Below, one piece after another: positions 6,040 through 51,632 of a stretch of 64,000 nucleotides of DNA. The notes under the pieces are model-generated. The model searched no databases, had not been told where the DNA came from, and worked only from the letters and a program-made list of their open reading frames with translations. Each line of letters opens with the position of its first letter. The first letter of the stretch is position 1. Source of the stretch: Thermomonas sp. (GTDB lineage Bacteria; Pseudomonadota; Gammaproteobacteria; Xanthomonadales; Xanthomonadaceae). The stretch lies in assembly GCF_019104945.1 (NCBI RefSeq), contig NZ_JAHRWW010000033.1, positions 1 through 64,000 on the forward strand, in the 5' to 3' direction. Made by a program: the position numbers and the translations under genes.

Positions 6040-6318
6040 TTAGCGACTCTCAAAGTGGTGCCAGATGCGCAGAATAACCAATGCGCTGTCATGCACTGTA
6101 TAGCGGACAACATACCTACCAAAGGTGAAGTCACGCACTGTATCCGGTTGTGGCGCTTCAGCGACACTCCGCCCCATCGCAGGAAACTGGCAAAGGTGAT
6201 CAATACGCGACACTAGATCCGCGGCGATGCGTGCTGCAGCGAATGGGTCGTGAGTTGCGATGAAAGCGCGAAGGCGTACAAGGTCAGCGACAGCCTCTTG
6301 AGAATAGATGAGCCTCAC
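6040..6318 (-). CDS. ParE/RelE-family toxin
   Basis: The 92-residue product has the ParE/RelE fold pattern: MRLIYSQEAVADLVRLRAFI at the start, a middle region with FPAMGRSV, and a C-terminal strand set DFTFGRYVVRYTVHDSALVILRIWHHFE that matches family members acting on gyrase or ribosome-bound mRNA. The start overlaps the antitoxin stop by 4 bases (6315-6318), the normal layout of such modules. Assignment between ParE and RelE activity cannot be made from sequence alone. The pair sits between the TraB gene and the flagellar locus, typical accessory content. Confidence 0.88.
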   Translation of the reverse strand: MRLIYSQEAVADLVRLRAFIATHDPFAAARIAADLVSRIDHLCQFPAMGRSVAEAPQPDTVRDFTFGRYVVRYTVHDSALVILRIWHHFESR

Positions 6319-6587
6319 TCACCCACCTTGGGAGGCAGCAGCTCATTGGGGCTACCCCAAGATTCCAGCCACGCATGGACGGCTTGGCTAGAGACAACCT
6401 TGCCTTGGGCGACGGATTCCATGGCAGCCAGCGTCTCGCTCCAGCGCAACTGCTCCTGCTCCTGACGCGCGACGAATTCTCGAATGGCTTGGTTGACCAG
6501 CCAATTCTTGCTGCGATGGAGCTTGTCTGCCATGGCCTCAAGGCCACTTTCAACTTCGGGCTGCAAGCGAACAGTCGTTACGCTCAT
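6315..6587 (-). CDS. Ribbon-helix-helix antitoxin of the ParE-type module
   Basis: I place the start at the ATG at 6587 because GGAGG lies seven bases upstream. The 90-residue product begins MSVTTVRLQPEVESGLEAMA, a ribbon-helix-helix (CopG/ParD-like) DNA-binding segment, with KNWLVNQAIREFVARQ as the second helix. The C-terminal half should bind and neutralise the toxin encoded immediately downstream with a 4-base overlap. Such antitoxins repress their own promoter, and a near-perfect palindrome lies 21 bases upstream of this start. Confidence 0.88.
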   Translation of the reverse strand: MSVTTVRLQPEVESGLEAMADKLHRSKNWLVNQAIREFVARQEQEQLRWSETLAAMESVAQGKVVSSQAVHAWLESWGSPNELLPPKVGE

Positions 6588-6608
6588 AGACGCACCTCCG
6601 GAACGATC

Positions 6609-6635
6609 TGAATGCACTGTATTACATTGCATTCA
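6609..6635. promoter_or_regulatory. 27-bp near-perfect palindrome, probable antitoxin operator
   Basis: Arms TGAATGCA (6609-6616) and TGCATTCA (6628-6635) are exact inverted copies. They enclose a second, concentric inverted repeat TGTA-T-TACA (6618-6626) with the same centre at 6622. Only one base pair of the whole element (6617/6627) fails to match. It lies 21 bases upstream of the antitoxin ATG, where ribbon-helix-helix antitoxins bind to autoregulate. Confidence 0.75.
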
Positions 6636-6777
6636 AGTACACAAGAAAGGAACGAAGGAGATGACCGGCTCATTATGGCCGCTCTAGAAGAAGTTGCGCG
6701 TGCGCAAAATCAGCAGAAGGGTGTGGCACATCACCGCCAGTCTTCGGCGGCTTAGCTCTGCCATATAGGAACCTCAC

Positions 6778-7068
6778 TTACGCAGCCGTCGGCGTCAACT
6801 GCATGCCCAGCGCGTGCATGACCTTCAGAACGGTAGCAAAGCTGGGATTGCCTTCTGCCGACAACGCACGGTAAAGCGATTCCCGCGACAGCCCTGTTTC
6901 ACGTGCCAATTGCATCATGCCGCGTGCGCGCACTACCTCGCCAATGGCTTGAGCGATGTAGCTCACATCATCACCGCCGTCCTCGAACACAGCCTCCAGA
7001 AACAGGCGGCAATCTTCGTCGGTTTGTAGGTGCGCTTGCACATCGAATTGTGTGGTCTTAGTGGTCAT
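6778..7068 (-). CDS. HigA-like addiction-module antidote protein, no toxin partner seen
   Basis: The ATG at 7068 gives 96 residues (MTTKTTQFDVQAHL). The sequence fits the family of addiction-module antidotes paired with HigB/Gp49-like toxins: an N-terminal dimer region, then a helix-turn-helix with GMMQLARETGLSRESLYRALS and the C-terminal NPSFATVLKVMHALGMQL. In this family the toxin gene usually precedes the antitoxin. Here the preceding gene, ending 8 bases away, is the giant TPR/methyltransferase gene. The 190 bases between this gene and the ribbon-helix-helix antitoxin hold no recognisable toxin. It is therefore an orphan antitoxin, or a regulator derived from one. Confidence 0.82.
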   Translation of the reverse strand: MTTKTTQFDVQAHLQTDEDCRLFLEAVFEDGGDDVSYIAQAIGEVVRARGMMQLARETGLSRESLYRALSAEGNPSFATVLKVMHALGMQLTPTAA

Positions 7069-7076
7069 GAATCCCT

Positions 7077-10000
7077 CTACCCCACCCTCCTCAATACCCA
7101 AAACTCGCGGTAGTTCAGGCCGTCATCGCATAGGCTGCCGGTACGCAGCACCTTGAAGCCTGCACTCACAATCGTATTTGCTTTTTCCAGAAAACCAACT
7201 TCGGTGCTTTCGGTGTTTCGTGTGCCTTGGCTTTCCAACAGCACAATACCGCCGGGTTTGCAGAAGCTGTACAGCTTTTTGCCGAAGGCATCTAACGGCA
7301 TGCCAATCCAGTGATGCACGGCGCAGGCAATCACCAAATCAAACGCTTTTGTAAGCTTGAATTGGTCGAAGGTGAGATGGTTCAAGTCGATATGCGAATG
7401 CCCTAGGTGCGCCGCCACCTTTCTACCTACATCAATACAGCTCTTAGAAATATCAAACCCGTAGCCATATTCTAGCTTGTCTGCCAACCCCATCAGCAAG
7501 AAGCCGTGGTTACAGCCAATGTCCAGCGCACGCGCTTTGCTGGGCAAAAACTCTTCCAAGTTGTAAATACCCAATCGGTGCATGGCGGGCCGGGTACCGG
7601 GAAGCATCAATGGCTCAAATGACTGGTACGGCAAGCCATAATCACCAAACGAATACTGAAGCGCATCTTTGCTGTATCCAGCCCATGCTTTTTGAATGTC
7701 CTGGTGCAGCCCAACAATGGCCTGCAACGCAGCATCGCCTGCCTTCGGCAGCGCCTGCAAAAACCGCTGATAGGCACGCACCGCATAAGGGGAATAAGGG
7801 CGCGTATTACACGCCTGCCACAGGCTATGGCAAGCCGCATCCACCTGCCCCACCTGCAACTGCGTTTGCGCTTGCGCCAGCAGTAGTTCGGCCTTGAGTG
7901 GGCCAACTTTTTCTGCAATCGAGCTTAACGCTTGCGTATGCCCTGCCAATGCAGCGTCGACTTGCCCAGCATGTGCATACAGGCGTGCCTGCGTAGAAAG
8001 CTCAAGCGCCTGTTCGCGCCCATCTTCGCTCCACGGTGCCTCTTCGCGTTGCTGCAGGGCTCGTTGCACTTGCACCTTATCTGGCGCAGGTTGTGCGGCC
8101 AGCACTTGCCAGCCCCGCTTGCGTACGTGCAAGCTCTCTGGAAGGCGTTTTTGTACTGCCTGTTGCACAATTTCAGCTTCCCACCACAGGCCACCACGCA
8201 GCAATACATCCACCGCTGTCATGCGAATGGAAAAATCACCCGGCGCAAGCTTTGTGGCCATTTGTAGTGGCGCAATCGCCTGCTCCAAATTGCCATGCCA
8301 AAAACAAAATTCAGCGAATAGCCGCTGGCTTTGCGCGTCTAGCGGAAACCGCTGCCCCAACGTCTGCAGCTCCACACCTAAGGCCAAATGCGAAGCACCG
8401 TCTGCAAGTTTGGCACGGAAATCAGCCAATTCCTGCATGGCCGGACCATCTCCACGGTAGTCAAAATACCCGCGCGCCTTGAAGAAATTATCGGCCAGAT
8501 CGCCCCCAATGGCCTGGAGTAACGCATAGGCTTGATCGTGCAAACCGTATAGGCCATCTAACACAAAAGCTAACTTCAATCGTTGTGAATCAGTGAGTTT
8601 CGCCGTGCGCTCAAGATTAGGTAGCAGCAGCACGTTCGCCTGTTCCAGCACAGAGCCCTCAGGTTCACGGGCAAACGGGCGCAGTTCGGGTGCGCGTGTG
8701 TCAATGGCAGAGTGGAACACCGGCTTAGCCAGCTGATGCATACGGAACCCGTTTTGCGCAGCCCAATAGCTCAGTTCCGCAAAGCTGGTCTGGCGCTCAT
8801 AGAGTTGCTCAAATAAAACTCCTACTTGAATCAGCAGCGTATCGGCTAAAACACGTTTGCCATTTTCAAGAATGGCCAAACTGTCGTTACGCGGCCCCAG
8901 CAGCAGGCAATCCAAGTGAGTCATACCGTCAATTTGGTCTAATGCGACGGTACGCACTGGAAACTCGGCCAGCACCTCCAAATCATCGGCTTGCTGGGCG
9001 GTGAGCTGTGCTGCGGGCAAAGGCTTCAGCGTGCTGGTGCAGTCTGTGCTCATACAGCCATACAACACCGTAGGCTGGCCATCCCCCAGTAGCATGTCTT
9101 TCACATATTGCAGGCGCGGGTTTTGCAACTCGCTGGGCGAAGGGTTGGCATCGCCGGTGACATCGAATGACAGAAAATTGAAGGTATTAAGCCCCATCAA
9201 CTTATCTGCATTACCCATACGCAGCAGCAGGCTGGTGTTATCCAACACATTAAGCGGTGTATCCAATACCCATTCGAACTTGGCGGTTTTACTGGGCTGT
9301 AAGTCCAGCGTATCACCGTCATAAAGATGGCCTGGCAGCGGCTCTGGCAGCACATTTGGAACATCCAAACGTGGAAACTCAGCCACTGCCTGCTTATAGC
9401 CCTGCATCATCGGGGCAAATTTATCGCGAAAGCGCTCACCTAGCCCCATAAAGCGGTTGGTGATGGGCATGGGCGCATCCCAAGACACAATAGGGCCAAG
9501 GTCGCCTAATAACGCTGCATTTTCCCCCACCACAGATTCGTAACTCTGCGCGCGCTTCAGCCCCAGCTTGCCTAATAGGTTTTCCATCACCTGCTGTGGG
9601 TTAGTGACCAGCTCCCCGTACTCTACAAGGTAGATAGGGTTCGGTAGCACCTGCGTCCAGTGCTCCATTACTTTTTCAGTCACCGCGATCTGCCGCCCTA
9701 AGGAGGGCTGGTCATAGCTATAGCGGTTATCTTCGGGTTTAGCATACATTTGAAAATAGCCAGTAACGGCCAAGTCAAGCACATTGCGAACACAAAAAAT
9801 CACCGGTACTTTGGGGGCCAAAAGACCAATATGCCCGAGATACCACAAGTCACCGGGAATGGTGGTGACCCGTAGCTTGCCGTCATCACCGCGCTGCTCT
9901 ATATAGCGCTGCGATGCCTGCGCAATGCTTTCGGGGGTTTGTTCGGCCAGCCAAGTGGCCAAGTTGCCGCCATAAGATGCGGTAAGCGAATCGTTGAACT

Positions 10001-10910
10001 TGGCGAGTAAATCCCCTTCACCCGCCAACTCCACGCCTTCCACACCGCGAAATAGCGACTCCACTAAACTCTTCCCGGAACGCGAAAGCCCCGCCACAAT
10101 CACCTGCGGCACCTTGCTGCTGGCAAACGGCGAGAGCTGTTGAAACAGTGACGCCGTGTAGTGATTGCGAACGAACGTCAAATTGCCGTCAAACGTCGCA
10201 GCATTACTAGGTGGCAAGCTTTCATGCACCAGCTTATTGGCCTGCTCAAACAGATCGAACGCGCGTGCATCTTCGCCCAGATCCAAATATGCTTTGCCTA
10301 ACGCAGCCAGCGCCTGCGAACGCATGCTTGCAGACAGTGTCGCATCTTCCAAGTACCGGCCAAGGATGTCGAAGATAGGGCTATCGGCCGTAATGGTTTG
10401 CAGAGAAGCTAAGGTTTGATACAGCGCGGCGTTCTCAGGGTCTTGCTGCAATGCGCGCATGAGGTACTGCTTGGCCAGCGCAGGCTGTCCAGCCAACATC
10501 AATGCGTTACATTTCAGGCTCAGCAAGGTCAAATTGTTAGGCTGCTTTTTTTCAGCCTCATCGAGATGTGCCAGCGCCTGTAGTACGCGGGCTTTCAGCG
10601 GGTTGCGCAATAAACTTTGCGCCAGCGCCATAAGCAACTCGGGCGTGCGCATGCCTTGGTCATAGAGCTGCTGATACACCGCCTGCGCCGCTTCCCAGCG
10701 CTCAAGCTTGACCAACGTATCACCGTAATGAGTCAGCACGGCAATGTCATTAGGGTGCAAAGTGCGAAGCTCAGCCAGCAAAGACTCCGCTGCTGCATAT
10801 TGCTCTTGTTGGTAGAGCAGCTTCGCCTGCGCCAACTGCTGCTGGTAAACCTTGCCCGCATTGTCGGCAGGTTTAACGAAGGGGAGTGCAGCTTTTCGAT
10901 GCTTGGCCAT
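7077..10910 (-). CDS. Giant multidomain protein: TPR, sulfotransferase-like, FkbM-like, TPR, SAM methyltransferase; candidate flagellin-modification factor
   Basis: The 1277-residue protein has five parts. Residues about 20-230 are TPR repeats. Residues about 268-530 resemble TPR-linked bacterial sulfotransferases, with a P-loop-like GLSRSGKSLVESLF (274-287), IPGDLWYLGHIGLLAP (351-366), CVRNVLDLAVTGYFQMY (373-389) and VEYGELVTNP. Residues about 540-735 resemble an FkbM methyltransferase (VRTVALDQID, then QVGVLFEQLYERQTSFAEL), but the usual KIDVEG-type motif reads LLGPRN. Residues about 800-1075 are further TPR-like helices. Residues about 1120-1277 form a Rossmann methyltransferase with motif I LDIGCNHGF (1129-1137), GFDIS (1151-1155) and ACAVHHWIGMP. 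Sulfotransferase hallmarks are also weakened: the DKMPGN-type lysine is replaced and the 3'-phosphate serine is threonine. The gene diverges from fliC1 and has its own FliA-like promoter. Role in flagellin or glycan modification is inference. Confidence 0.8.
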   Translation of the reverse strand: MAKHRKAALPFVKPADNAGKVYQQQLAQAKLLYQQEQYAAAESLLAELRTLHPNDIAVLTHYGDTLVKLERWEAAQAVYQQLYDQGMRTPELLMALAQSLLRNPLKARVLQALAHLDEAEKKQPNNLTLLSLKCNALMLAGQPALAKQYLMRALQQDPENAALYQTLASLQTITADSPIFDILGRYLEDATLSASMRSQALAALGKAYLDLGEDARAFDLFEQANKLVHESLPPSNAATFDGNLTFVRNHYTASLFQQLSPFASSKVPQVIVAGLSRSGKSLVESLFRGVEGVELAGEGDLLAKFNDSLTASYGGNLATWLAEQTPESIAQASQRYIEQRGDDGKLRVTTIPGDLWYLGHIGLLAPKVPVIFCVRNVLDLAVTGYFQMYAKPEDNRYSYDQPSLGRQIAVTEKVMEHWTQVLPNPIYLVEYGELVTNPQQVMENLLGKLGLKRAQSYESVVGENAALLGDLGPIVSWDAPMPITNRFMGLGERFRDKFAPMMQGYKQAVAEFPRLDVPNVLPEPLPGHLYDGDTLDLQPSKTAKFEWVLDTPLNVLDNTSLLLRMGNADKLMGLNTFNFLSFDVTGDANPSPSELQNPRLQYVKDMLLGDGQPTVLYGCMSTDCTSTLKPLPAAQLTAQQADDLEVLAEFPVRTVALDQIDGMTHLDCLLLGPRNDSLAILENGKRVLADTLLIQVGVLFEQLYERQTSFAELSYWAAQNGFRMHQLAKPVFHSAIDTRAPELRPFAREPEGSVLEQANVLLLPNLERTAKLTDSQRLKLAFVLDGLYGLHDQAYALLQAIGGDLADNFFKARGYFDYRGDGPAMQELADFRAKLADGASHLALGVELQTLGQRFPLDAQSQRLFAEFCFWHGNLEQAIAPLQMATKLAPGDFSIRMTAVDVLLRGGLWWEAEIVQQAVQKRLPESLHVRKRGWQVLAAQPAPDKVQVQRALQQREEAPWSEDGREQALELSTQARLYAHAGQVDAALAGHTQALSSIAEKVGPLKAELLLAQAQTQLQVGQVDAACHSLWQACNTRPYSPYAVRAYQRFLQALPKAGDAALQAIVGLHQDIQKAWAGYSKDALQYSFGDYGLPYQSFEPLMLPGTRPAMHRLGIYNLEEFLPSKARALDIGCNHGFLLMGLADKLEYGYGFDISKSCIDVGRKVAAHLGHSHIDLNHLTFDQFKLTKAFDLVIACAVHHWIGMPLDAFGKKLYSFCKPGGIVLLESQGTRNTESTEVGFLEKANTIVSAGFKVLRTGSLCDDGLNYREFWVLRRVG

Positions 10911-10928
10911 GAAATTCCCTGTTGTGGC

Positions 10929-10955
10929 GTAACGGGTGCGCGCTCACAAACCTTA
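10929..10955 (-). promoter_or_regulatory. FliA (sigma-28)-type promoter of the multidomain gene
   Basis: On the minus strand TAAGGTTT (10955-10948) is followed after 11 bases by CCCGTTAC (10936-10929). The enterobacterial consensus is TAAAGTTT-N11-GCCGATAA, and the local flagellar promoters read GCCGTTAC. Predicted transcription would start about 10 bases upstream of the ATG at 10910, with AGGGA as the ribosome site. Confidence 0.65.
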
Positions 10956-11243: not shown

Positions 11244-12449
11244 ATGGCTATTATCAATACCAACGTTATGTCGTTGAACGCACAGCGCAATCTGGCTGTG
11301 AACAGCGCCAGCCTTGGCACCACCATTCAGCGCCTGTCCTCGGGTTTGCGCATCAACAGCGCCAAAGACGATGCCGCAGGCCTTGCCATCGCCGAGCGTT
11401 TCACCACGCAGATCCGTGGCCTAGACCAAGCTGCACGCAATGCCAACGACGGTATTTCATTGGCGCAAACGGCAGAAGGCGCGCTGGGCGAAGTGAGCAA
11501 CAACCTGCAGCGCATCCGCGAGTTGGCGGTGCAGTCGCGCAACGCCACCAATAATGATAGCGACCGCGAAGCCCTGCAAAAAGAAGTCACCCAGCTGAAA
11601 GGCGAAATTGACCGCGTGGCCAAGCAGTCGGCATTCAACGGCACCATGCTGCTAGACGGTAGCTTCTCTGCGCAGGCCTTCCAGGTGGGGGCCAACCAAG
11701 GCCAAACCATTGATCTCACAGCTATTATCAATGCCAAAATTGATTCACTAGGCACTTGGGATAGCGTAACCGTACCTGCCGACACTGGCATTTCTGGCAC
11801 GCTAACCGAAGTCGCCAGTGCCGCCTCTGCAGGTACGTTTGTATTGAAGGTGGGCACCGTTACTGTTGCCAATCTTGCCGTGGCAGCAGGCGACGCACTC
11901 ACCGCCTCTGCGGTGGATGCGGCCATTGCAGGTAACGCTACCGCACTTACCACCGCAGGCTATACCAAAACGGGTACAGCCGCCGATGGCACCTTACGCT
12001 TCAGCCGCACTGACGGAACCAACTTTACGGTAAGTGCTGCTGCAGCGGGCGGCGTATCGGCCGCCATTTTCTCCAAACAAGCCACCTTTACCGCCCCCAC
12101 CGCCAATGGTGAAGCCGCCACTACCGGTAAAGTAGGCTTTGAATTCTTGAGTATTGCCACCACCGCAGGAGCCGACAATGCCATTTTGGCCATGGACGCC
12201 GCGTTAAAAGACGTAAACGCGACCCGCGCAGACCTAGGCGCTATTCAAAACCGCTTTGAATCGGTGATCCGCAACCTCACCACCACCTCGGAAAACTTGA
12301 GCGCCTCACGCAGCCGTATCCGCGACGCCGATTTTGCCAAAGAAACCGCCGAACTCACCCGCACGCAAATCTTGACCCAAGCCGGTACCGCTATGTTGGC
12401 CCAAGCCAACCAAGCCCCGCAGAACATTTTGAGCCTACTGCGTCAGTAA
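11244..12449 (+). CDS. fliC: Flagellin (first copy)
   Basis: The ATG at 11244 follows GGGAG and gives 401 residues. The N-terminal 150 residues are a canonical D0/D1 flagellin region (MAIINTNVMSLNAQRNL, SSGLRINSAKDDAAGLAI, then IRELAVQSRNATN). The C-terminal 100 are the matching half (NAILAMDAALKDVNATRADLG, LTRTQILTQAGTAMLAQA, ending LLRQ). Between them lies a low-complexity Ala/Thr/Ser-rich D2-type region exposed on the filament surface, a usual target of O-linked glycosylation. A second flagellin gene follows after 203 bases with almost identical ends but an unrelated centre. FliS, FliD and the anti-sigma factor FlgM are all encoded in this window. Confidence 0.97.
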   Translation: MAIINTNVMSLNAQRNLAVNSASLGTTIQRLSSGLRINSAKDDAAGLAIAERFTTQIRGLDQAARNANDGISLAQTAEGALGEVSNNLQRIRELAVQSRNATNNDSDREALQKEVTQLKGEIDRVAKQSAFNGTMLLDGSFSAQAFQVGANQGQTIDLTAIINAKIDSLGTWDSVTVPADTGISGTLTEVASAASAGTFVLKVGTVTVANLAVAAGDALTASAVDAAIAGNATALTTAGYTKTGTAADGTLRFSRTDGTNFTVSAAAAGGVSAAIFSKQATFTAPTANGEAATTGKVGFEFLSIATTAGADNAILAMDAALKDVNATRADLGAIQNRFESVIRNLTTTSENLSASRSRIRDADFAKETAELTRTQILTQAGTAMLAQANQAPQNILSLLRQ

Positions 12450-12652: not shown

Positions 12653-13825
12653 ATGGCCATTATCAACACCAACGTCATGTCGCTGAACTCGCAGCGTAAC
12701 CTGGCGGTTAACAGTGCGAGTCTCGGCACCACCATTCAGCGTCTATCGTCGGGCCTGCGCATCAACAGCGCCAAAGACGACGCCGCGGGCCTTGCCATTT
12801 CTGAGCGGTTTACCACGCAGATCCGTGGCCTAGACCAAGCCGCGCGCAATGCGAATGACGGTATCTCGCTGTCGCAAACCGCTGAAGGTGCGCTGGGTGA
12901 AATTGGCAACAACCTGCAGCGTATCCGTGAGCTGGCCGTGCAAGCACGTAACGCCACCAACAGCAGCGACGACCGCGCCGCCCTGCAAAAGGAAGTGGCA
13001 CAGCTTAAGTCTGAAATTGCCCGCGTAGCCAAAGATACCTCATTCAACGACACCAAACTGCTGGACGGCAGCTTTACTGCGCAGTCGTTCCAGGTGGGTG
13101 CCAACCAGGGCCAAACCATTGATATTTCCAGCATTGCCAATGCCAGCATCACGCAATTGGGTAGCTGGACATCGGCAAGCACCACCACCTACACGCAGAC
13201 AACTGCAGCCAACACAGTGGGCGCTACCACCGCAACACAAGGCGCCTCCATGGTGATCAACGGCGTCACGGTTTCCATTTCCGCCAGCGCTCGTTCTGCA
13301 GCGGCTGCCCAGACGGCGTTTGTTGCTGCGTTCAACACAGCCAAAGGTCTTTCGGCTAACGCTGCTGCGCTAGGTAATGTCACAATGTCGGCTACCGGTG
13401 CAATCACATCTACCGACAAACAGCTGACCGTCGGCACCATGACCAACGTCACCGGTATGACACCTGGCACCACCACGGGTACAGCGACTGTTGTAGCAGG
13501 TTCTGCACAAACAGGTTTCAATAATCTGAGTATTGCCACGGTCTCGGGTGCCGATAACGCCATCTTGGCCATGGACGCCGCACTGAAAGATGTGAACGCC
13601 AGCCGCGCGGATCTTGGTGCCATTCAGAACCGCTTCGAGTCGGTGATCCGCAACCTCACCACCACCTCGGAAAACCTAAGCGCATCGCGTAGCCGCATCC
13701 GCGACACCGACTTCGCTAAGGAAACCGCCGAGCTAACGCGGACGCAGATCCTCACCCAGGCCGGTACTGCTATGTTGGCCCAGGCCAACCAAGCCCCGCA
13801 AAGTGTGCTGAGCCTGCTGCGTTAA
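12653..13825 (+). CDS. fliC: Flagellin (second copy)
   Basis: A 390-residue flagellin whose first 150 residues and last 100 residues closely match the upstream copy (SLNSQRNL and LAISERFTTQ are among the few differences). The centre, about residues 165-285, differs and is rich in threonine, alanine and serine. The ends form the filament core together with the other flagellin, and the middle would give a different surface. The gene has a good ribosome site (AGGAG) and two FliA-like promoters, and is followed by a strong hairpin. Both copies appear intact, so mixed or spatially ordered filaments are possible. Confidence 0.97.
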   Translation: MAIINTNVMSLNSQRNLAVNSASLGTTIQRLSSGLRINSAKDDAAGLAISERFTTQIRGLDQAARNANDGISLSQTAEGALGEIGNNLQRIRELAVQARNATNSSDDRAALQKEVAQLKSEIARVAKDTSFNDTKLLDGSFTAQSFQVGANQGQTIDISSIANASITQLGSWTSASTTTYTQTTAANTVGATTATQGASMVINGVTVSISASARSAAAAQTAFVAAFNTAKGLSANAAALGNVTMSATGAITSTDKQLTVGTMTNVTGMTPGTTTGTATVVAGSAQTGFNNLSIATVSGADNAILAMDAALKDVNASRADLGAIQNRFESVIRNLTTTSENLSASRSRIRDTDFAKETAELTRTQILTQAGTAMLAQANQAPQSVLSLLR

Positions 13826-13998: not shown

Positions 13999-14433
13999 AT
14001 GTCCACGATCGCGCCCATCCCTAGCCCGCTAAGCGGTGCTACCCCCGCCTCGACGCACAGCGCCGGGGCTTTGTCGCGTGCGTCTGCTACGGCAAGCGCC
14101 ACGCAAACCCCCACCAGCCAAGCTCAGGCCAAAACCCAAGCCCCTTCGCTACAGGCGGCCAACGCGCAAGAGCGCGCACAAGACGCGTTGGCGCAGGCCC
14201 AGCAAAAGGTAGAGCCGGGCGAGCTGCAAAAGCAGATCGACACGGTAATGGCGCAGGCGCAGGTGCAAACTTCGCTGCAGTTCCGCGTAGACGACGACGT
14301 GGGCGAAGTGGTGGTGTCGGTGGTAGATTCCGACTCCGGCGAAACCATCATGCAAATTCCCAACGAGGCAGCGCTGTCCATTGCCAAACGCTTGGCAGAG
14401 TTTGGGAGCGGGCTGGTAAACCAAGAGGCGTAA
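13999..14433 (+). CDS. flaG: FlaG family flagellar protein
   Basis: The 144-residue product has a long Ala/Ser/Thr/Gln-rich N-terminus. Its conserved C-terminal FlaG domain contains LQFRVDDDVGEVVVSVVDSDSGETIMQIPNEAAL, then IAKRLAEF. FlaG proteins are small cytoplasmic or filament-associated proteins that influence flagellar filament length and are commonly encoded between fliC and fliD, as here. I saw no good FliA promoter directly in front of it (TAAAGGAA at 13925 lacks a matching -10), so it may depend on read-through. Confidence 0.9.
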   Translation: MSTIAPIPSPLSGATPASTHSAGALSRASATASATQTPTSQAQAKTQAPSLQAANAQERAQDALAQAQQKVEPGELQKQIDTVMAQAQVQTSLQFRVDDDVGEVVVSVVDSDSGETIMQIPNEAALSIAKRLAEFGSGLVNQEA

Positions 14434-14464
14434 CGCTTTAAACGGCTAAGGCAGCCGCGCCTAT

Positions 14465-14491
14465 TCAAGTTTTTTCTCTGGCTGCCGTTAC
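14465..14491 (+). promoter_or_regulatory. FliA-type promoter of the fliD operon
   Basis: TCAAGTTT (14465-14472), 11 bases, then GCCGTTAC (14484-14491), 49 bases before the fliD ATG. The -10 element is identical to those of fliC2 (proximal) and flgM. Confidence 0.68.
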
Positions 14492-14540
14492 ACTAAGCGA
14501 TGCAGCATGGCTTCAGGAATCTGACAGCGGAGAATTTAAC

Positions 14541-15884
14541 ATGGCGAGTCTTTCCAGCACCGGCATTGGCTCAGGCCTTGATGTCAGCACAATCGTAGCC
14601 AAGTTGGTGGCCGCCGAGCGCGCCCCAACTGAAAACCGCATTACACGGCTAGAAACCACCACCAAGGCACAAATTTCGGCCTTTGGCAGTATTAAAGCAG
14701 CGCTTTCTGGCCTTGAAAGTGCGCTAAAAAAGCTGGACGGAGCAGGCAGCCTCCCCGGCCGCAAGGCCACAGTGGGCACCGACGCAGGCTTTGCCGCCAG
14801 TGTCGATACCAAAGCCGCACTGGGCATCTACTCCGTCACCGTAGATGCACTTGCCACGGCACATAAGTTGCAGTCGGCCGCAGCGGCCAAAGACACCCAA
14901 ATTGGCAATGGCACCCTCACCATTCAAGTAGGCACGGGCGATAGTTTCGATATCACCATCGAGCCGGGCAAAGGCACGCTGAACGATATTCGCAGCGCCA
15001 TCAACGCGCAAGGCGCGGGTAAAGGCGTGTCGGCCACCATCGTGCGCGGCGACGCGGGCGACGTGCTGGTGCTCTCCTCTACCAAAACTGGCAGCGAAGG
15101 TGCCATGACCATCACCTCAAGCGGTGGCGATGGCGGCCTTTCGGTGCTGAACACATCGGGTGGCACACTCACCGTGGCCGCCGCCGCGCAAGACGCGCAA
15201 GTCACCGTGGACGGCATTTCCCGCACGGTGTCTAGCAACCACATCACCGACATGATCGACGGCGTAACCTTGGACCTCACCAAAGCCAAGCCGGGTGAGT
15301 CGTTTAGCTTAGAAGTGACCTCTGACCCCAGCACCCTCAAAGCCTCAATGTTAAGTGTGGTCAGCGCTTACAACACTGCGCTAAGTGCCATTCGTACGCA
15401 AAGCGCTGCGGGTGGTGAAGGCGCTGTAGCGGGCGCACTCAGCGGCGACTCCATGACCCGCGGCATTCAGCAATCGCTGCGTAATGCTATTGGCGGAAGC
15501 TATTCAGACCTCGCCGAGATGGGCTTTAAGACCGCCGTCGATGGCTCGTTAAGCCTTGATGGGGCCAAGTTTGATGCAGCCATGGCGGCCGACCCGGGTA
15601 AGATCAAAGCGGTATTTGGTGAAGAAGGCAGCTTGGGTAAAGGCATGCGCGATATGCTGCATAATTACTTGGGCGACCAAGGCACCCTAACCGACCGCAC
15701 CAAGGGCTTGAACGACCGTCTGAAATCAGCCACCCAACAGCGCACCGATCTTGACGCCCGTATGAGCCGCGTTGAAGCGGCGTATCTGCGCCAGTTCACC
15801 GCGCTGGATACTATGATGGCCAAGATGCAAAGCACCTCCAACTACCTCGCCCAGCAATTGGGGCAGATTTCCAACTCTAAATAA
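14541..15884 (+). CDS. fliD: Flagellar filament cap protein FliD
   Basis: A full-length 447-residue FliD (HAP2), the cap that helps flagellin subunits polymerise at the filament tip. The N-terminal signature SSTGIGSGLDVSTIVAKLV and the coiled N-terminal helix are present. The C-terminal domain carries MSRVEAAYLRQFTALDTMMAKMQSTSNYL. The middle is Gly/Ala/Thr-rich, as is usual for the variable D2/D3 part. fliS follows after 9 bases and should be co-transcribed. Confidence 0.96.
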   Translation: MASLSSTGIGSGLDVSTIVAKLVAAERAPTENRITRLETTTKAQISAFGSIKAALSGLESALKKLDGAGSLPGRKATVGTDAGFAASVDTKAALGIYSVTVDALATAHKLQSAAAAKDTQIGNGTLTIQVGTGDSFDITIEPGKGTLNDIRSAINAQGAGKGVSATIVRGDAGDVLVLSSTKTGSEGAMTITSSGGDGGLSVLNTSGGTLTVAAAAQDAQVTVDGISRTVSSNHITDMIDGVTLDLTKAKPGESFSLEVTSDPSTLKASMLSVVSAYNTALSAIRTQSAAGGEGAVAGALSGDSMTRGIQQSLRNAIGGSYSDLAEMGFKTAVDGSLSLDGAKFDAAMAADPGKIKAVFGEEGSLGKGMRDMLHNYLGDQGTLTDRTKGLNDRLKSATQQRTDLDARMSRVEAAYLRQFTALDTMMAKMQSTSNYLAQQLGQISNSK

Positions 15885-15893
15885 CGGCTCGCC

Positions 15894-16283
15894 ATGAACG
15901 CACACGCCTACGCCCAGCAGTACCGCCAAACCGCCGTGAGCAGTGCTGTGCTAGACGCCAGCCCACATAAGCTGGTGGCTCTGATGTTGGCCGGTATTCG
16001 CGAACGTTTGAAACTGGCCTCGGCCTGCATTGCCCGCGAAGATTTTGCCCGCAAAGGCAAAGCCATTGGCGAAACCAACCTGCTGCTGGGGGAGTTAAAC
16101 GGCTCACTTGACCACAGCGCCGGCGGCGACATCGCCGACGGTCTTTCGGCCCTATACGACTACGCCCAGCAGCGCCTCACCGAAGCCAACCTCAATAACG
16201 ACGCCACCATTTTGGACGAAGTAGATAGCCTAGTTGCCGACATTGAAAGCGCCTGGCTGGCTATTGACCCGGATAAGCGCTAA
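15894..16283 (+). CDS. fliS: Flagellin export chaperone FliS
   Basis: The 129-residue product matches FliS, the four-helix chaperone that holds flagellin before export. It shows AYAQQYRQTAVSSAVLDASPHKLVALML at the N-terminus and SLDHSAGGDIADGLSALYDYAQQRLTEANLN, both hallmark regions. It lies between fliD and a FliT-like gene, the usual order. Confidence 0.96.
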   Translation: MNAHAYAQQYRQTAVSSAVLDASPHKLVALMLAGIRERLKLASACIAREDFARKGKAIGETNLLLGELNGSLDHSAGGDIADGLSALYDYAQQRLTEANLNNDATILDEVDSLVADIESAWLAIDPDKR

Positions 16284-44226: not shown

Positions 44227-46629
44227 CTATAGCGCGACTGCCGGGTGCATATCGTCCAACAGTGAAAAGTGCAGGCTGTCCCAAGCCCCGCTATCGGCCA
44301 GCGCCGTCAATTCATGACGCCCTGGCTCATTAAACTCCCGCGTAAAAACACGCGCGCTTTCAGTTTCACCAATCCAGCGCCCATCGAGCAGCCATTGCAC
44401 GCGCGTGCTTGCACCTAACGCACGTAGCGATAGCACCACTCCACCTGTTTGGTTGGGCGGGCGCACCAACGTCACGCCATCATTAAGCCCCGCAATTTGG
44501 ATGGTCTCAGTCGCCGCGCGGCTATCGGCCTTACAGTCTTCTGCAAGCGCAGGAAGCACAGCATTATTCCGCCACGTGCTAGGTAACCACGGCATGGTTA
44601 ACGCTGGCCAGCGTGCAATGCTCCGCTGTTGCGGCACATGCGGTAGGCGACATTCTGCAGACAAGCGCCGCCCGCTGCGGGCGTCAACGGAAAACACCTC
44701 AATGCCTGCGCTCCACAACCGCGCCTGTCGTTCTGCAAAAGTGGGCGGCAAATTGTCATCCAAAACCCAAGCGGGCATTCGCTTCACACAAAGTTCCGGA
44801 GGCTGCGCATTGGCAGCAGTACCAAGCGGCCAACAAATATCCACCTGCGTCACGCTCTTCGGCCTTGCAATACGCGCAGGATCATTCGGCTGGTGCGGCA
44901 GGCTATCAATAATTTCAAACATCAACGGTAGCGCCGTCACGGCGCCGTACTGACCCGGTAACGGTGTTCCATCCGGACGCCCTACCCACACGCCCACGCT
45001 ATAGCGCGGTGTTGCGCCCACTGCCCAAGCGTCACGAAAGCCGTAACTTGTTCCTGTTTTCCAAGCCACCTGCGCACGCTGTTGATTGGAGAACATACCT
45101 TCGCGCTCACCGGGCCGAGGGGCTTCAGCGAGCATCTCGCGCACGATCCAAGCCGCACCTGGTGAAAGTAGTCGGCGTTCGGTTTTCGGAGACGCGGGTG
45201 TATAGCGAACGCGCCCAGCAGTGCCGCCACGTTGTAGCGCTGCAAACGCTCCTACGACATCTTCAAGGCGCGCCCCCGTGCCACCAAGAATGAGCGATAA
45301 ATTCGGCGCTGCACCTTGCGGAAATTTCAGCGCAAGACCGGCATGCTCTAACCGTGTTGCAAAACGTACAGGGCCAACACGCTCAAGCAAATCAACCGCC
45401 GGAACATTCACCGAGAGGCGCAGTGCTTCGGCCGCACCAATAGGGCCATTAAACGCACTATCAAAATTACTCGGCCGGTAGCCATCAAACGACTGTGGCG
45501 CATCCACTAGCAAACTCTCTGAATGAATCAAGCCGTCGTCTAACGCCATGCCGTACAAAAATGGTTTAAGGGTAGAACCTGGGGAGCGATTCGCCTGCAC
45601 CATATCCACATGTCCAAGCCGCTCTTTATCCGCAAACACCACTGAACCGATATAGGCGCGCGCTTCCATATCTGCGTTATCCACCACCAGTACCGCCGCA
45701 GAAGTACGCGATGGCAAGTTCGAGAAATAACTGGCCACGCGCTCCTCCAAGGCACGCTGTAACCCGATGTCGAGTGTGGACACAATTCGCTGCTGATGAG
45801 GCTGCGCGCTATGCAGGCGCCGCGCTAACAGGGGCGCAATAAGCGGTTGCTGAAGATGGCGTGTCACAACGGTTTCAATACGCGCATCCTCCACCTGTGC
45901 CGATGTCCAAACCTTGCGCGTCTTCATTCGCTGTAGAAGTTTGTTCCGCGCGGCCTGCGCAGCTTCCGGGTGTCGGTCTGGACGTAGGCGGCTGGGGGAC
46001 TGCGGCAATACGGCAAGCAGAGCCGCTTCTGCATGCGAGAGTTTGGCGGCAGGCTTGCCTAAATAAGCCCAACTGGCGGCCTCGACGCCTTCAATGGTTC
46101 CACCAAAAGGAGCGCGCTGCAGATAGAGCGTGAGTATCTCGCGCTTTGAGAGATGCGCTTCAAGCTGCAGTGCGCGCAGTACCTGTCGTAGCTTACCCGG
46201 TGCGCTGCGCGTGCGTCGCCCTTGCAGGTGAGGGTCGATCATTCGCGCCACTTGCATCGTGAGCGTCGAACCACCCGAAACGATATGTCGATGACCCACA
46301 AGCTGCAAACTGGCGCGCAGCATGGCTACCGGGTTAACTCCTGGGTGCCACCAGTACCAACGATCCTCATACCCCAAAAGTGCCTGCAGATATAAAGGCG
46401 AGACCTGTTCCATTGTTGTTGGATAGCGCCACACACCACGCGCATCGGCAAACGCGCGTAGCGGCGTGCCGTCACGCGCAACAACGACAGTCGCAACATC
46501 TTTGCGCTTGGGGAGCGGCAACGGGAAGGCCCAATCAAGTATCAGCAACAATGCGAGCATTGCTGCCAGCCCCAAGCGTAGCCCCACAAAGCACCGTCTC
46601 CTAAAAGCAGGAGACAGGTACTGCGTCAC
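44227..46629 (-). CDS. pbpC: Penicillin-binding protein 1C
   Basis: The 800-residue protein probably starts at the GTG at 46629, overlapping the stop of the alpha-2-macroglobulin gene (GTGA). It has an N-terminal membrane anchor (LGLAAMLALLLILDWAFP), a GT51 glycosyltransferase domain (ALLGYEDRWYWWHPGVNP; GGSTLTMQVARM), and a transpeptidase domain with S352 in SPGSTLKPF and WKTGTSYGF. The C-terminal BiPBP_C domain contains GVVLSLRALGASTRVQWLLDG. PbpC and the YfhM-type macroglobulin are a known conserved pair, proposed to repair and protect the cell envelope. Confidence 0.96.
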   Translation of the reverse strand: MTQYLSPAFRRRCFVGLRLGLAAMLALLLILDWAFPLPLPKRKDVATVVVARDGTPLRAFADARGVWRYPTTMEQVSPLYLQALLGYEDRWYWWHPGVNPVAMLRASLQLVGHRHIVSGGSTLTMQVARMIDPHLQGRRTRSAPGKLRQVLRALQLEAHLSKREILTLYLQRAPFGGTIEGVEAASWAYLGKPAAKLSHAEAALLAVLPQSPSRLRPDRHPEAAQAARNKLLQRMKTRKVWTSAQVEDARIETVVTRHLQQPLIAPLLARRLHSAQPHQQRIVSTLDIGLQRALEERVASYFSNLPSRTSAAVLVVDNADMEARAYIGSVVFADKERLGHVDMVQANRSPGSTLKPFLYGMALDDGLIHSESLLVDAPQSFDGYRPSNFDSAFNGPIGAAEALRLSVNVPAVDLLERVGPVRFATRLEHAGLALKFPQGAAPNLSLILGGTGARLEDVVGAFAALQRGGTAGRVRYTPASPKTERRLLSPGAAWIVREMLAEAPRPGEREGMFSNQQRAQVAWKTGTSYGFRDAWAVGATPRYSVGVWVGRPDGTPLPGQYGAVTALPLMFEIIDSLPHQPNDPARIARPKSVTQVDICWPLGTAANAQPPELCVKRMPAWVLDDNLPPTFAERQARLWSAGIEVFSVDARSGRRLSAECRLPHVPQQRSIARWPALTMPWLPSTWRNNAVLPALAEDCKADSRAATETIQIAGLNDGVTLVRPPNQTGGVVLSLRALGASTRVQWLLDGRWIGETESARVFTREFNEPGRHELTALADSGAWDSLHFSLLDDMHPAVAL

Positions 46630-49600
46630 GGCTGCACCACAGTTATTCGTTCTGGAACGGCTTTACCCACCCCGCGGAGCGTCGGTTGATACATATCCTC
46701 GAGCAAAGGCGGAGGCACCGTATAGCTACCGGGCGTCACCGCACGCACCAAATAAAACACATTGGCCGTTGAGCCCGCATCCAAACTCACTGCAGCTACG
46801 TAGCGATCATCACGAAACTCTTCATGGCGCACTTTTGCGGCGCTATTACGGTCGCTAATCTCGATGCCCTCCACACTTACATCAGCCCACTGTTTCGCAT
46901 CAGACAGATTGAAATTTTCAATCTCAAGCCCTGCTGGGAGCAAGTCTGTGAGCAGGGCATCGGGCATATCACGGTCTGCGCGCATCGAAACGCGCACGAT
47001 AAGCGCCTCACCTTCTTTCAAAGGCTGCGGCGTCCAAGGCTTGCCGTCCGTGGTGTACAGGGTGCGCTCTACTTTAACCACCCTAAAGTCCTCTACGGGT
47101 GCTTTACGCGGAACCCCGGCCACATCCAAACTTGCATAGAACGGCCCCTGACCACTTGGTACAAAGCGCATCCCTTTCTCCAGCGCCGCGTAGTCAAGCT
47201 CTTTCGAAAAACTCTTGGCTGCCGCAATCACGCTGGCGGCTCCGTTTTGTGTCAACGTTCCACTGATCAATTTCTTTTGATCCACAAGCAGTGCTTTACC
47301 CAAACGTGCCAACGCAATTTGCTCTTGCGTACTTAACCAGAACCACGGCGATGCGCGGCGACGTGCGTCCAGCTCAAGCCCAAGCTCAACCACCTTTGCA
47401 TCAAAACTAGGCTTGGAATAACCACGCTCGTGCGTCATCGCCACCATCAGCGCAGAATCACGCAGCGGCGTGCTGTAATCACCTAACCAGCCCTGCCTAT
47501 CGCCCTTGAAAGCAAAGCCTTCTGCAATCGCATGTTCACCGCGCTTTTTATCACCTTGCATGGCCAATGCAAGGCCGAGGCGCACCAGCGGAAGCCCGCT
47601 AAGCGTTTGCTTACGATCATTGTCATACAGTGCGCGCAGCGTTCCTAATGGCGCACGATTGACGCGTGCCAACACATAACCGGCATAGGCCTGGTATGAG
47701 AACTTCAGGTATTGGCGATGATTGCGTCCGTAGAACTCATTGCTTCCAGACAGCAAATCATCATTTAACCGCTGCAAGGCTTTTTGCAGCACTGTATCGG
47801 GAACGGCAAAACCAGCATCACGTGCATCGAGCAGGTATTCAACGATATAGGGTGTGAGCAACGGATCTATATCGCTATCGCTCCCCCATACCGAGAAATG
47901 CCCATTCCCTACTTGCATTGCAGACAGCCGCCCCAATGCGCCTTCCATTCGCGTGCGGCGCTTGGCTGCATTCAAGCCTTCTACACCAAACCGCTGCGCC
48001 GTTTCCGCATCCAATGTCAGTGCCGCATAGCCTTTGCTGGTGGTTTGTTCAGCGCAGCCATAGGGATAGTCCAGCGCGCCCTTCAGCGCGGCTCCAAATG
48101 GAATGGGCGGCAGCGGGCTCACCAACATCCGTGCCCGCACCGACCCTGTGATCAAACCGTCGGCAAAATCAGCATTCATACTGACGGCCGCACCATCTCC
48201 CGCCACCTGCGTCTGCGAGCGCAATACCGAAGGCCACGCCGGGCGCACCGGTAGGTCGTACTTGCGATCTACACGATACATTGCGCTATCGACGCGTACC
48301 CGTACTTGCGCAACACCAAAGCCCTCTAACGCCGTTAGCGGGAAGCTCTGCGTGGACTTAGCTCCCGCCGTAAGCGTCAGCGTTCGTGTGGCATCTGCAA
48401 TAACGGCAGGCCCAATGCCATCCAGCTTCACTTTGAACTCGCCGTTCTTGCCGGTGAAATTGGTGACATCCAGCGTTACCGTCCCTTTATCGCCTGGCGC
48501 CATCACACGCGGCATGCTGATCTCCGCCACCACCGGCGCACGCACTATGGTTTCAGTATCCGCCTGCCCATAGCGCGTATCCGAATACACCAGTGCTGAA
48601 ACGCGCAGCGTACCGTTGAAGTCGGGCACATTGAGCGCCAGCGCCGCATTCCCTTTGGCGTCTAGCTGCACGGGGCCAGAGAACACATCCACGGTTTGCA
48701 CACGCGCAGTCGGGCGCCGCGCCTGCGGCAGCGCAGCCAACGCCATATCACCACCAAAACGCAGCTTCGCCGTACTGCCCTCATAGCTTTCGATGATGCG
48801 TCCGTAGATGTCATAGGCATCAATGCCCAGCCTGCGCTGCGCAAAGAAATAGGAGGCCGCATTGGGTACTGGGAAGCGGGTGATATTCAAAATCCCGACA
48901 TCCACCGCCGATACAGTTGCCCAAGCGCGCTGCCCCGCCAACTGCGGCGCACTTAGGCTTATCTGCAGCGGTTTTTCTGGCAGCACCTGTTTGGCCACCT
49001 TCAAACTTACAGGAGCCACTCGATCACGCCGATCCATCGGCACAAACACTTCGCCCACCGCGCGTGCAGGTGTAATTTTGCTGGCCGCGCTGCCGCCGCG
49101 AAACACAAGCGCTGTGACATAAATATCGTGGCGCTCCCAGTCTTGGGTCACCGGGATTTCCACCACGCTTCCTGCTTTCACGTCCACCGACTTCACAAAG
49201 AGCAAGCGGTCGCTTTCCACCATCACCAGCCCCTCTCCCGCATGCGGCGGGGTGAGCGTGAGCTTGAGTTTATCCCCTGCGCGATACGCGGTTTTATCCA
49301 GCGCCAGCTTGACCTTATCCGGCCGGGCATCAAGACCGCGATTTTCGTCATTCCAGCTCCACCCTGCACGGAACGGATAACGCATGGTGAGCTTGGTTGA
49401 AGGGTCTGTAACCTCGATACGGTAATCGCCCCACTCTACCGGCACATTGAAACGCGTTGCCACCGTGCCGACGTCATACGTTTGCGCCTGCACATCTTCG
49501 TAGCGTCGCGTAAAGTCATAGCTCCAACCACTACTATCGTCGTGGACCCAGCGGTAATCCCGAATTTCACGCACGAGCTTGACGCGCAGCCCTTTCGCAG

Positions 49601-51560: not shown

Positions 51561-51632
51561 ACGCGCCATCTAGGATCCATCCCACAATGAAGTTCCCCAA
51601 GTATGACGCAGAAAACGGGAAAAACAGGACGC

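Follow-up and report, generated by a model that had tools for sequence, protein, structure and literature searches.

The flagellin of Caulobacter is O-glycosylated by FlmG, in which tetratricopeptide repeats (TPR) are combined with a GT41 glycosyltransferase domain. A report on FlmG describes a cytoplasmic modular flagellin modifier with an N-terminal flagellin-binding part followed by the transferase, and notes that the recognition of flagellin by its modifying enzymes is poorly understood (PMC7591256). In enterobacterial flagellin glycosylation islands, a GT41 enzyme of the SPINDLY type is joined to a methyltransferase domain (PMC4875605). We here analyse P0001, a 1277-residue protein encoded beside two flagellin genes on a 64,000-nucleotide stretch of Thermomonas sp. 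DNA (contig NZ_JAHRWW010000033.1, positions 1 to 64,000; termed the window), which combines TPR, sulfotransferase and methyltransferase modules with a middle domain termed DOM. Among the matches listed from the open-access literature, no title or abstract opening describes a protein of this type or DOM; the closest of them are archaeal and concern sulfotransferases of Halobacterium with an N-linked glycan as substrate (PMC11980604) and the N-glycosylation of the archaellum (PMC11239922). The data presented below make it likely that P0001 is a cytoplasmic single-chain flagellin modifier resembling FlmG, whose sulfotransferase and methyltransferase would act on flagellin or on its sugar.

The P0001 gene is an intact open reading frame (ORF) with an ATG start and no internal stop, divergent from fliC1, as given in a preliminary description of the window. 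The TPR, sulfotransferase and methyltransferase modules proposed there were recovered by Pfam matches which all exceed the curated cut-offs, with 53.6 bits against 27 for Sulfotransfer_3 (PF13469) and 47.3 bits against 30 for Methyltransf_12. The chain is organised as follows:

7077-10910, minus strand: P0001, TPR - sulfotransferase - pseudo-FkbM (DOM) - TPR-like - methyltransferase (ORF and Pfam)
10221-10838, minus strand: N-terminal TPR superhelix, residues about 25-230, the predicted substrate-binding part (Pfam TPR_14, E 6e-17; helices in an AlphaFold2 model)
9555-10109, minus strand: sulfotransferase domain, residues 268-452 (Sulfotransfer_3, E 4.8e-14)
10068-10091, minus strand: 5'-phosphosulfate loop G274-LSRSGK-S281, Walker-A-like, with K280 (alignment)
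8472-9278, minus strand: DOM, residues 545-813, a methyltransferase domain of degenerate FkbM type that marks the flagellin-linked family (profile comparison and motif alignment)
7611-8471, minus strand: helical region with TPR-like repeats, residues 814-1100 (weak TPR-type Pfam matches; homologue alignment)
7245-7526, minus strand: S-adenosylmethionine (SAM)-dependent methyltransferase domain, residues 1129-1222, with the LDIGCNHG motif (Methyltransf_12, E 3.5e-12; alignment)

The best TPR match covers residues 25-64. An AlphaFold2 model of 830 residues reached a pTM of 0.64, so that the placement of the domains is uncertain, and a Foldseek search with this model yielded, among the matches listed, mainly TPR/OGT superhelices, which is uninformative on the sulfotransferase. 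Residues 814-1100 share 26-33% identity with six homologues of the same architecture (see below), and the C-terminal domain of P0001 contains methyltransferase motif I (LDIGCNHG).

The middle part of the chain (residues 545-813) has no sequence relative in Pfam, NCBIfam, PHROGs or the PDB, and one of 20 DOM copies compared with Pfam reaches the FkbM model, at an E-value of 0.029. A comparison of profiles by hhalign, with an FkbM profile composed of five domains from tandem chains and five from remote matches, aligned DOM with FkbM (Methyltransf_21) methyltransferases over 259 columns (probability 100, E 3e-40). The five tandem FkbM copies carry the motifs D[IV]GANPIDG and KIDIQGGE, whereas neither the DIGAN-like nor the KIDxQG-like signature, and thus neither SAM-binding nor catalytic motif, is kept in any of 71 DOM copies. 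DOM is therefore a pseudo-methyltransferase, and the designation FkbM-like of the preliminary description holds in the sense of a degenerate homologue but not in that of an FkbM enzyme. DOM adopts a methyltransferase-like fold in its AlphaFold2 model (pLDDT 88.6); all six PDB matches with E-values of at most 0.001 are methyltransferases or SAM-dependent enzymes, including UbiG and METTL6, at low TM-scores of 0.29-0.33 by query.

When residues 500-860 of P0001 were used to search 369 genomes sampled across the class, four weak matches and a single strong one (genome G423; 39% identity, E 2e-54) were obtained besides the window. The strong match is part of a 1168-residue GT4-DOM-GT2 protein beside a flagellin gene, in a locus whose further genes we take to encode FliD and a pseudaminate-type sugar synthesis; 52 of 146 relatives of G423 match a two-row DOM profile. 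In a phylum sample of 398, the DOM profile found 26 mostly weak matches. A scan of named genomes with a 20-copy DOM alignment retrieved 97 stretches matching the pattern, 72 of which encode relatives and constitute the 72 DOM loci considered below. They belong mostly to the Halomonadaceae, the others to Marinobacterium (three), Halochromatium (two) and one each to Marinobacter, Alloalcanivorax, Pseudomonas and a gammaproteobacterial metagenome-assembled genome; they share DOM with P0001 at 30-43% identity. The flagellar neighbours of P0001 in the window, which had been identified by Pfam, are:

11244-12449, plus strand: FliC1 flagellin, likely substrate (E 4e-46)
12653-13825, plus strand: FliC2 flagellin, likely substrate
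13999-16283, plus strand: FlaG, FliD and FliS, completing the order fliC1, fliC2, flaG, fliD, fliS

With FliC1 as query (phmmer, E-values up to 1e-5), a flagellin ORF was detected in 69 of the 72 DOM loci, the nearest one 61-1948 bp from the DOM gene and thus always within 2 kb; the other three are truncated, the contig ending 264, 1279 and 3 bp ahead of the gene. In 65 of the 69 loci, the nearest flagellin gene precedes the DOM gene in the same orientation; it is divergent as in the window in three (Marinobacterium) and located downstream in one. Homologues residing mostly away from flagellar genes would have spoken against a role in flagellin modification; the outcome was the opposite. The link of P0001 to flagellin is thereby strongly supported by the neighbourhood, and so is the preliminary reading as a flagellin or flagellin-glycan modification factor, with sulfation and methylation as predicted activities. 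That the neighbourhood is incidental, the sulfate acceptor of P0001 being some polysaccharide or a different protein, appears very improbable to us. TPR-sulfotransferases are indeed common in the order and not necessarily flagellar, the genome contains two other sulfotransferase genes, and six control stretches of 11.8-19 kb (four TPR-sulfotransferase stretches of other genomes of the order, L040 from the window's genome, and L038) gave no FliC match; this scenario is, however, hard to reconcile with the 69 flagellin-linked DOM genes and with the sigma-28-type site described below. The control L038 (genome G038) had been a candidate relative in its own right, as its 315-residue frame matches DOM with an E-value of 5e-9; it was assigned to the FkbM enzymes on account of its intact motifs, and its 19-kb stretch contains no flagellin. 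In one DOM locus (L178, Halomonas sulfidaeris), the DOM, FliC, FliD and sugar genes are broken into several frames, perhaps by sequencing errors.

The partners of DOM vary and include TPR-GT41 chains of the FlmG type, GT4/GT2, FkbM and sulfotransferase domains. In a set of 72 proteins from 71 loci, without a 151-residue piece of L176 and a 165-residue piece of L178, GT41 is present in 43 (16/38 and 27/34) and Sulfotransfer_3, at E-values up to 0.001 and in some cases below the cut-off, in 15 (7/38 and 8/34). GT4 is found in 18 of the 72 DOM loci, and at least two nonulosonate-type genes lie in the stretch in 10 of them. These glycosyltransferase partners are of the kind known from flagellin modification, in keeping with the proposed role. 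The order sulfotransferase - DOM - methyltransferase recurs in six of the 72 loci, those of Billgrantia aerodenitrificans, B. kenyensis, B. lactosivorans, Halomonas socia, H. colorata and Vreelandella jeotgali, whose proteins are 34-41% identical overall to P0001 with a flagellin 84-1646 bp away. The combination of modules, for which the preliminary description knew no described system, is not unique to this genome. The Halomonadaceae-type chains thus share DOM and the fliC neighbour with P0001, and six of them its architecture, but mostly contain GT41 or GT4 instead of its sulfotransferase; the commonest DOM form is the FlmG-like TPR-GT41 chain, and P0001 is a form with the sulfotransferase in the place of GT41. 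A DOM tree of 72 rows, rows below 200 bits having been left out, groups P0001 with H. socia (L108; support 100/86) and then B. aerodenitrificans (L107; 100/98), its branch of 1.33 rendering the placing unsure; partner classes change seven times on this tree compared to a possible minimum of three. The constant neighbourhood and the changing partners lead us to infer that DOM would dock flagellin. Two frames of 302 and 304 residues (L165:9968-10873 and L172:9947-10858) consist almost of DOM alone, each in a locus with flagellin; DOM may there act as a separate protein.

Two further sets of candidates were considered. Frames of 1089-1396 residues in genomes G007, G046 and G011 were rejected as full-length homologues, being TPR-sulfotransferases on apparently spurious high-GC extensions, with no flagellin in the stretches retrieved. 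A plasmid search gave 33 records, none of which covers 80% of the query, the matches listed falling within residues 50-512 of P0001. About 4 kb beyond the B. aerodenitrificans gene, a protein with a sulfatase-modifying-factor (FGE) domain is encoded (L107:16486-18063), which is probably unrelated.

Compared with FlmG, P0001 also carries an N-terminal TPR part (Pfam, AlphaFold2) but is devoid of GT41; the sulfotransferase is found in its place, and the pseudo-FkbM and methyltransferase domains are additional. P0001 may therefore be said to work like the FlmG-type transferases without being a member of them. The enterobacterial GT41-methyltransferase proteins resemble it as flagellin-linked chains with a methyltransferase domain; the main text of the report on them contains no word beginning with "sulf" (PMC4875605).

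The sulfotransferase domain was compared with 18 of 32 listed matches to other TPR-sulfotransferases. At the positions of E298, R375 and T383 of P0001, all 18 carry Glu, Arg and Ser, respectively. We take these residues to be catalytic and involved in 3'-phosphate binding. The TPR-Sulfotransfer_3 proteins thus share with P0001 a sulfotransferase domain combined with TPR and, like the protein-tyrosine sulfotransferases, the catalytic Glu and the residues for the 3'-phosphate of 3'-phosphoadenosine-5'-phosphosulfate (PAPS). P0001 is distinguished from both groups by DOM, the methyltransferase, the flagellar locus and the 5' loop. This loop normally presents Ser or Thr after RSG or RAG; in P0001 it reads GLSRSGKS (GxSRSGKS), with K280 at a position occupied by Ser or Thr in all 18 proteins, and donor use might differ accordingly. 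As the loop forms a perfect Walker A motif (GxxxxGKS), invariant in P0001 and five of its six homologues, the domain could have been converted into a phosphotransferase that uses ATP, or into a scaffold that binds nucleotides. We consider such a conversion improbable in view of the retained 3'-PAPS residues and catalytic Glu. Moreover, a profile of six of these sulfotransferase domains retrieved 20 PDB matches at an E-value limit of 1, weak ones with E-values of 0.003-0.9 but all of them sulfotransferases, among which TPST1 was aligned over profile positions 10-200; the kinase reading of the loop was ranked low after this search. PAPS can be made by the organism because its genome encodes an APS (adenosine-5'-phosphosulfate) kinase.

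The V. jeotgali homologue (L145:9047-13063) no longer has the 5' loop or residues corresponding to E298 and T383, while the Arg is kept and the methyltransferase motif is intact. Its sulfotransferase thus looks dead, which implies that the modules of the chain can decay one by one. Methyltransferase motif I, in turn, reads LDIGCxxG in four of the six homologues and is altered in L107 and L108. These losses, together with a DOM stripped of catalytic motifs, might be taken to indicate a catalytically dead chain that serves as a TPR/DOM-based flagellin chaperone or export regulator; for P0001 we hold this to be hardly probable, since it keeps E298, R375 and T383 of the sulfotransferase as well as motif I of the methyltransferase.

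A closer contender concerns the acceptor. P0001 might decorate a flagellin glycan provided by an unlinked glycosyltransferase, sulfate and methyl groups being placed on the sugar and the polypeptide remaining untouched, a scenario that we regard as a serious one, albeit slightly short of an even prospect. It is favoured by the fusion of sulfotransferase or FkbM domains to GT41-DOM chains in L109 (TPR-GT41-DOM-FkbM-sulfotransferase), L111 (TPR-GT41-DOM-Sulfotransfer_4) and L143, by the methyltransferase domains on GT41 enzymes of the enterobacterial islands (PMC4875605), and by 14 GT2 matches in the window's genome, none of which is on the window's contig. On the other hand, the genome, about 95% complete, gave no GT41 match, and Pfam identified no glycosyltransferase among the window proteins submitted to it (part of the window's ORFs) or among 10 ORFs around the L107 and L108 genes. 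Alternatively, P0001 might sulfate and methylate the flagellin polypeptide itself on Ser, Thr or Tyr and thereby replace glycosylation in this lineage, with DOM as the docking module of a large unrecognised family with interchangeable enzymes; this more far-reaching proposal seems to us rather doubtful.

Elsewhere in the genome, three large GT2-domain frames (488, 664 and 642 residues) lie together at G000:C28:8842-14939 and are candidates for an unlinked glycan locus. A second sulfotransferase gene and a GT2 gene lie some 2 kb apart (G000:C9:53279-56062), perhaps in a sulfated polysaccharide locus. The MptE-like family PF01973, tried as a test for Maf, was discarded as uninformative, its control matches being in archaea only.

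The following element precedes the P0001 gene:

10929-10955, minus strand: sigma-28-type promoter-like site TAAGGTTT-N11-CCCGTTAC, 18 nt before the P0001 ATG

It is the sole exact match within the 64-kb window, in which five matches with up to three mismatches occur versus 0.28 expected. A stricter scan, allowing at most one mismatch to TAAAGTTT, followed by N11 and NCCGNTAN as -10, gave three sites versus a mean of 0.04 and a maximum of one in 100 Markov shuffles. These precede the P0001 gene, fliD (14465) and a 104-residue ORF downstream of flgA (the latter identified by Pfam), which by its position is presumably flgM. A promoter signal 18 bases before the start had been noted previously and proved to be a strong sigma-28-type site. 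Its equation with the signal of the filament genes applies to fliD, whereas fliC2 is preceded by two sites with three mismatches and fliC1 by a variant with four mismatches only. The P0001 gene is thus probably co-expressed with the filament via its own sigma-28 promoter. The relatives were scanned at flagellin ORFs of at least 200 residues lying at least 350 bp from an end, and at the DOM genes except for two situated too close to an end. Sigma-28-like sites were detected before 85 of 107 fliC ORFs (6 of 107 in the opposite-strand control) and before none of 70 DOM genes (2 of 70 in the control). Because the sites precede fliC and not the DOM genes, the latter, which mostly lie behind fliC on the same strand, are probably expressed from the fliC promoter.

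Several observations weigh against the proposed role as a flagellin modifier, in addition to the deviating loop lysine and the homologues with single altered modules (the sulfotransferase in L145, motif I in L107 and L108). The relatives lack a conserved counterpart of the sigma-28 site, and the same scan gave none in the three divergent Marinobacterium loci. Eight of the 23 weaker phylum-sample matches (L084-L106, stretches with 1.5-kb flanks), namely those for which the FkbM class was assigned, hold a frame with both FkbM motifs intact. A full-length P0001 homologue was found in none of 24 genomes of the same genus, though eight of these have flagellins. Finally, the substrate could be another product made at the same time.

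With regard to origin, the Tgt protein encoded in the window shares 87-92% identity with its counterparts from 18 genomes of the same genus, so the contig belongs to this genus, in which flagellin is found in nine of 25 genomes including the window's own. When FliC1 and FliC2 were compared with the flagellins of three same-genus genomes and of 13 of the 72 DOM loci, the best scores were those within the genus (53-63% identity over the full length), the long matches among the DOM-locus flagellins reaching 38-46%. This affinity, the DOM tree and the lower GC content at third codon positions of the P0001 gene (0.60 versus 0.63-0.70 in five neighbours) suggest that P0001 was acquired beside a resident flagellin. 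Directly 3' of the gene (6315-7101, minus strand), a ribbon-helix-helix protein is encoded together with an antidote protein of the dnstrm_HI1420 type (PF21716, E 2e-26), and these toxin-antitoxin-like genes would fit a mobile insertion beside fliC. The sampled stretches of the genome have 52-57% GC versus 65-70% in five genomes of the genus, which is unusual within it. Farther away, at 44227-51569 on the minus strand, a bacterial alpha-2-macroglobulin of 1647 residues adjoins a transglycosylase/transpeptidase penicillin-binding protein.

We finally outline a scenario for P0001 as a FlmG-like modifier, of which we infer the substrate, the donor use, the order of the reactions and the roles of the TPR part and DOM. 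The TPR superhelix, with DOM as a docking or scaffold part, would capture newly made flagellin before its export. The sulfotransferase domain would transfer a sulfonate group from PAPS, and the C-terminal domain a methyl group from SAM, either to flagellin or to a sugar attached to it. P0001 would accordingly represent a new modular form among the flagellin-linked modification enzymes, with a predicted chemistry. The presence of DOM beside flagellin throughout nearly all of its loci, with partners changing between GT41, GT4, GT2, FkbM, sulfotransferase and methyltransferase, makes it a candidate specificity element, and P0001 itself points to sulfate on bacterial filaments.

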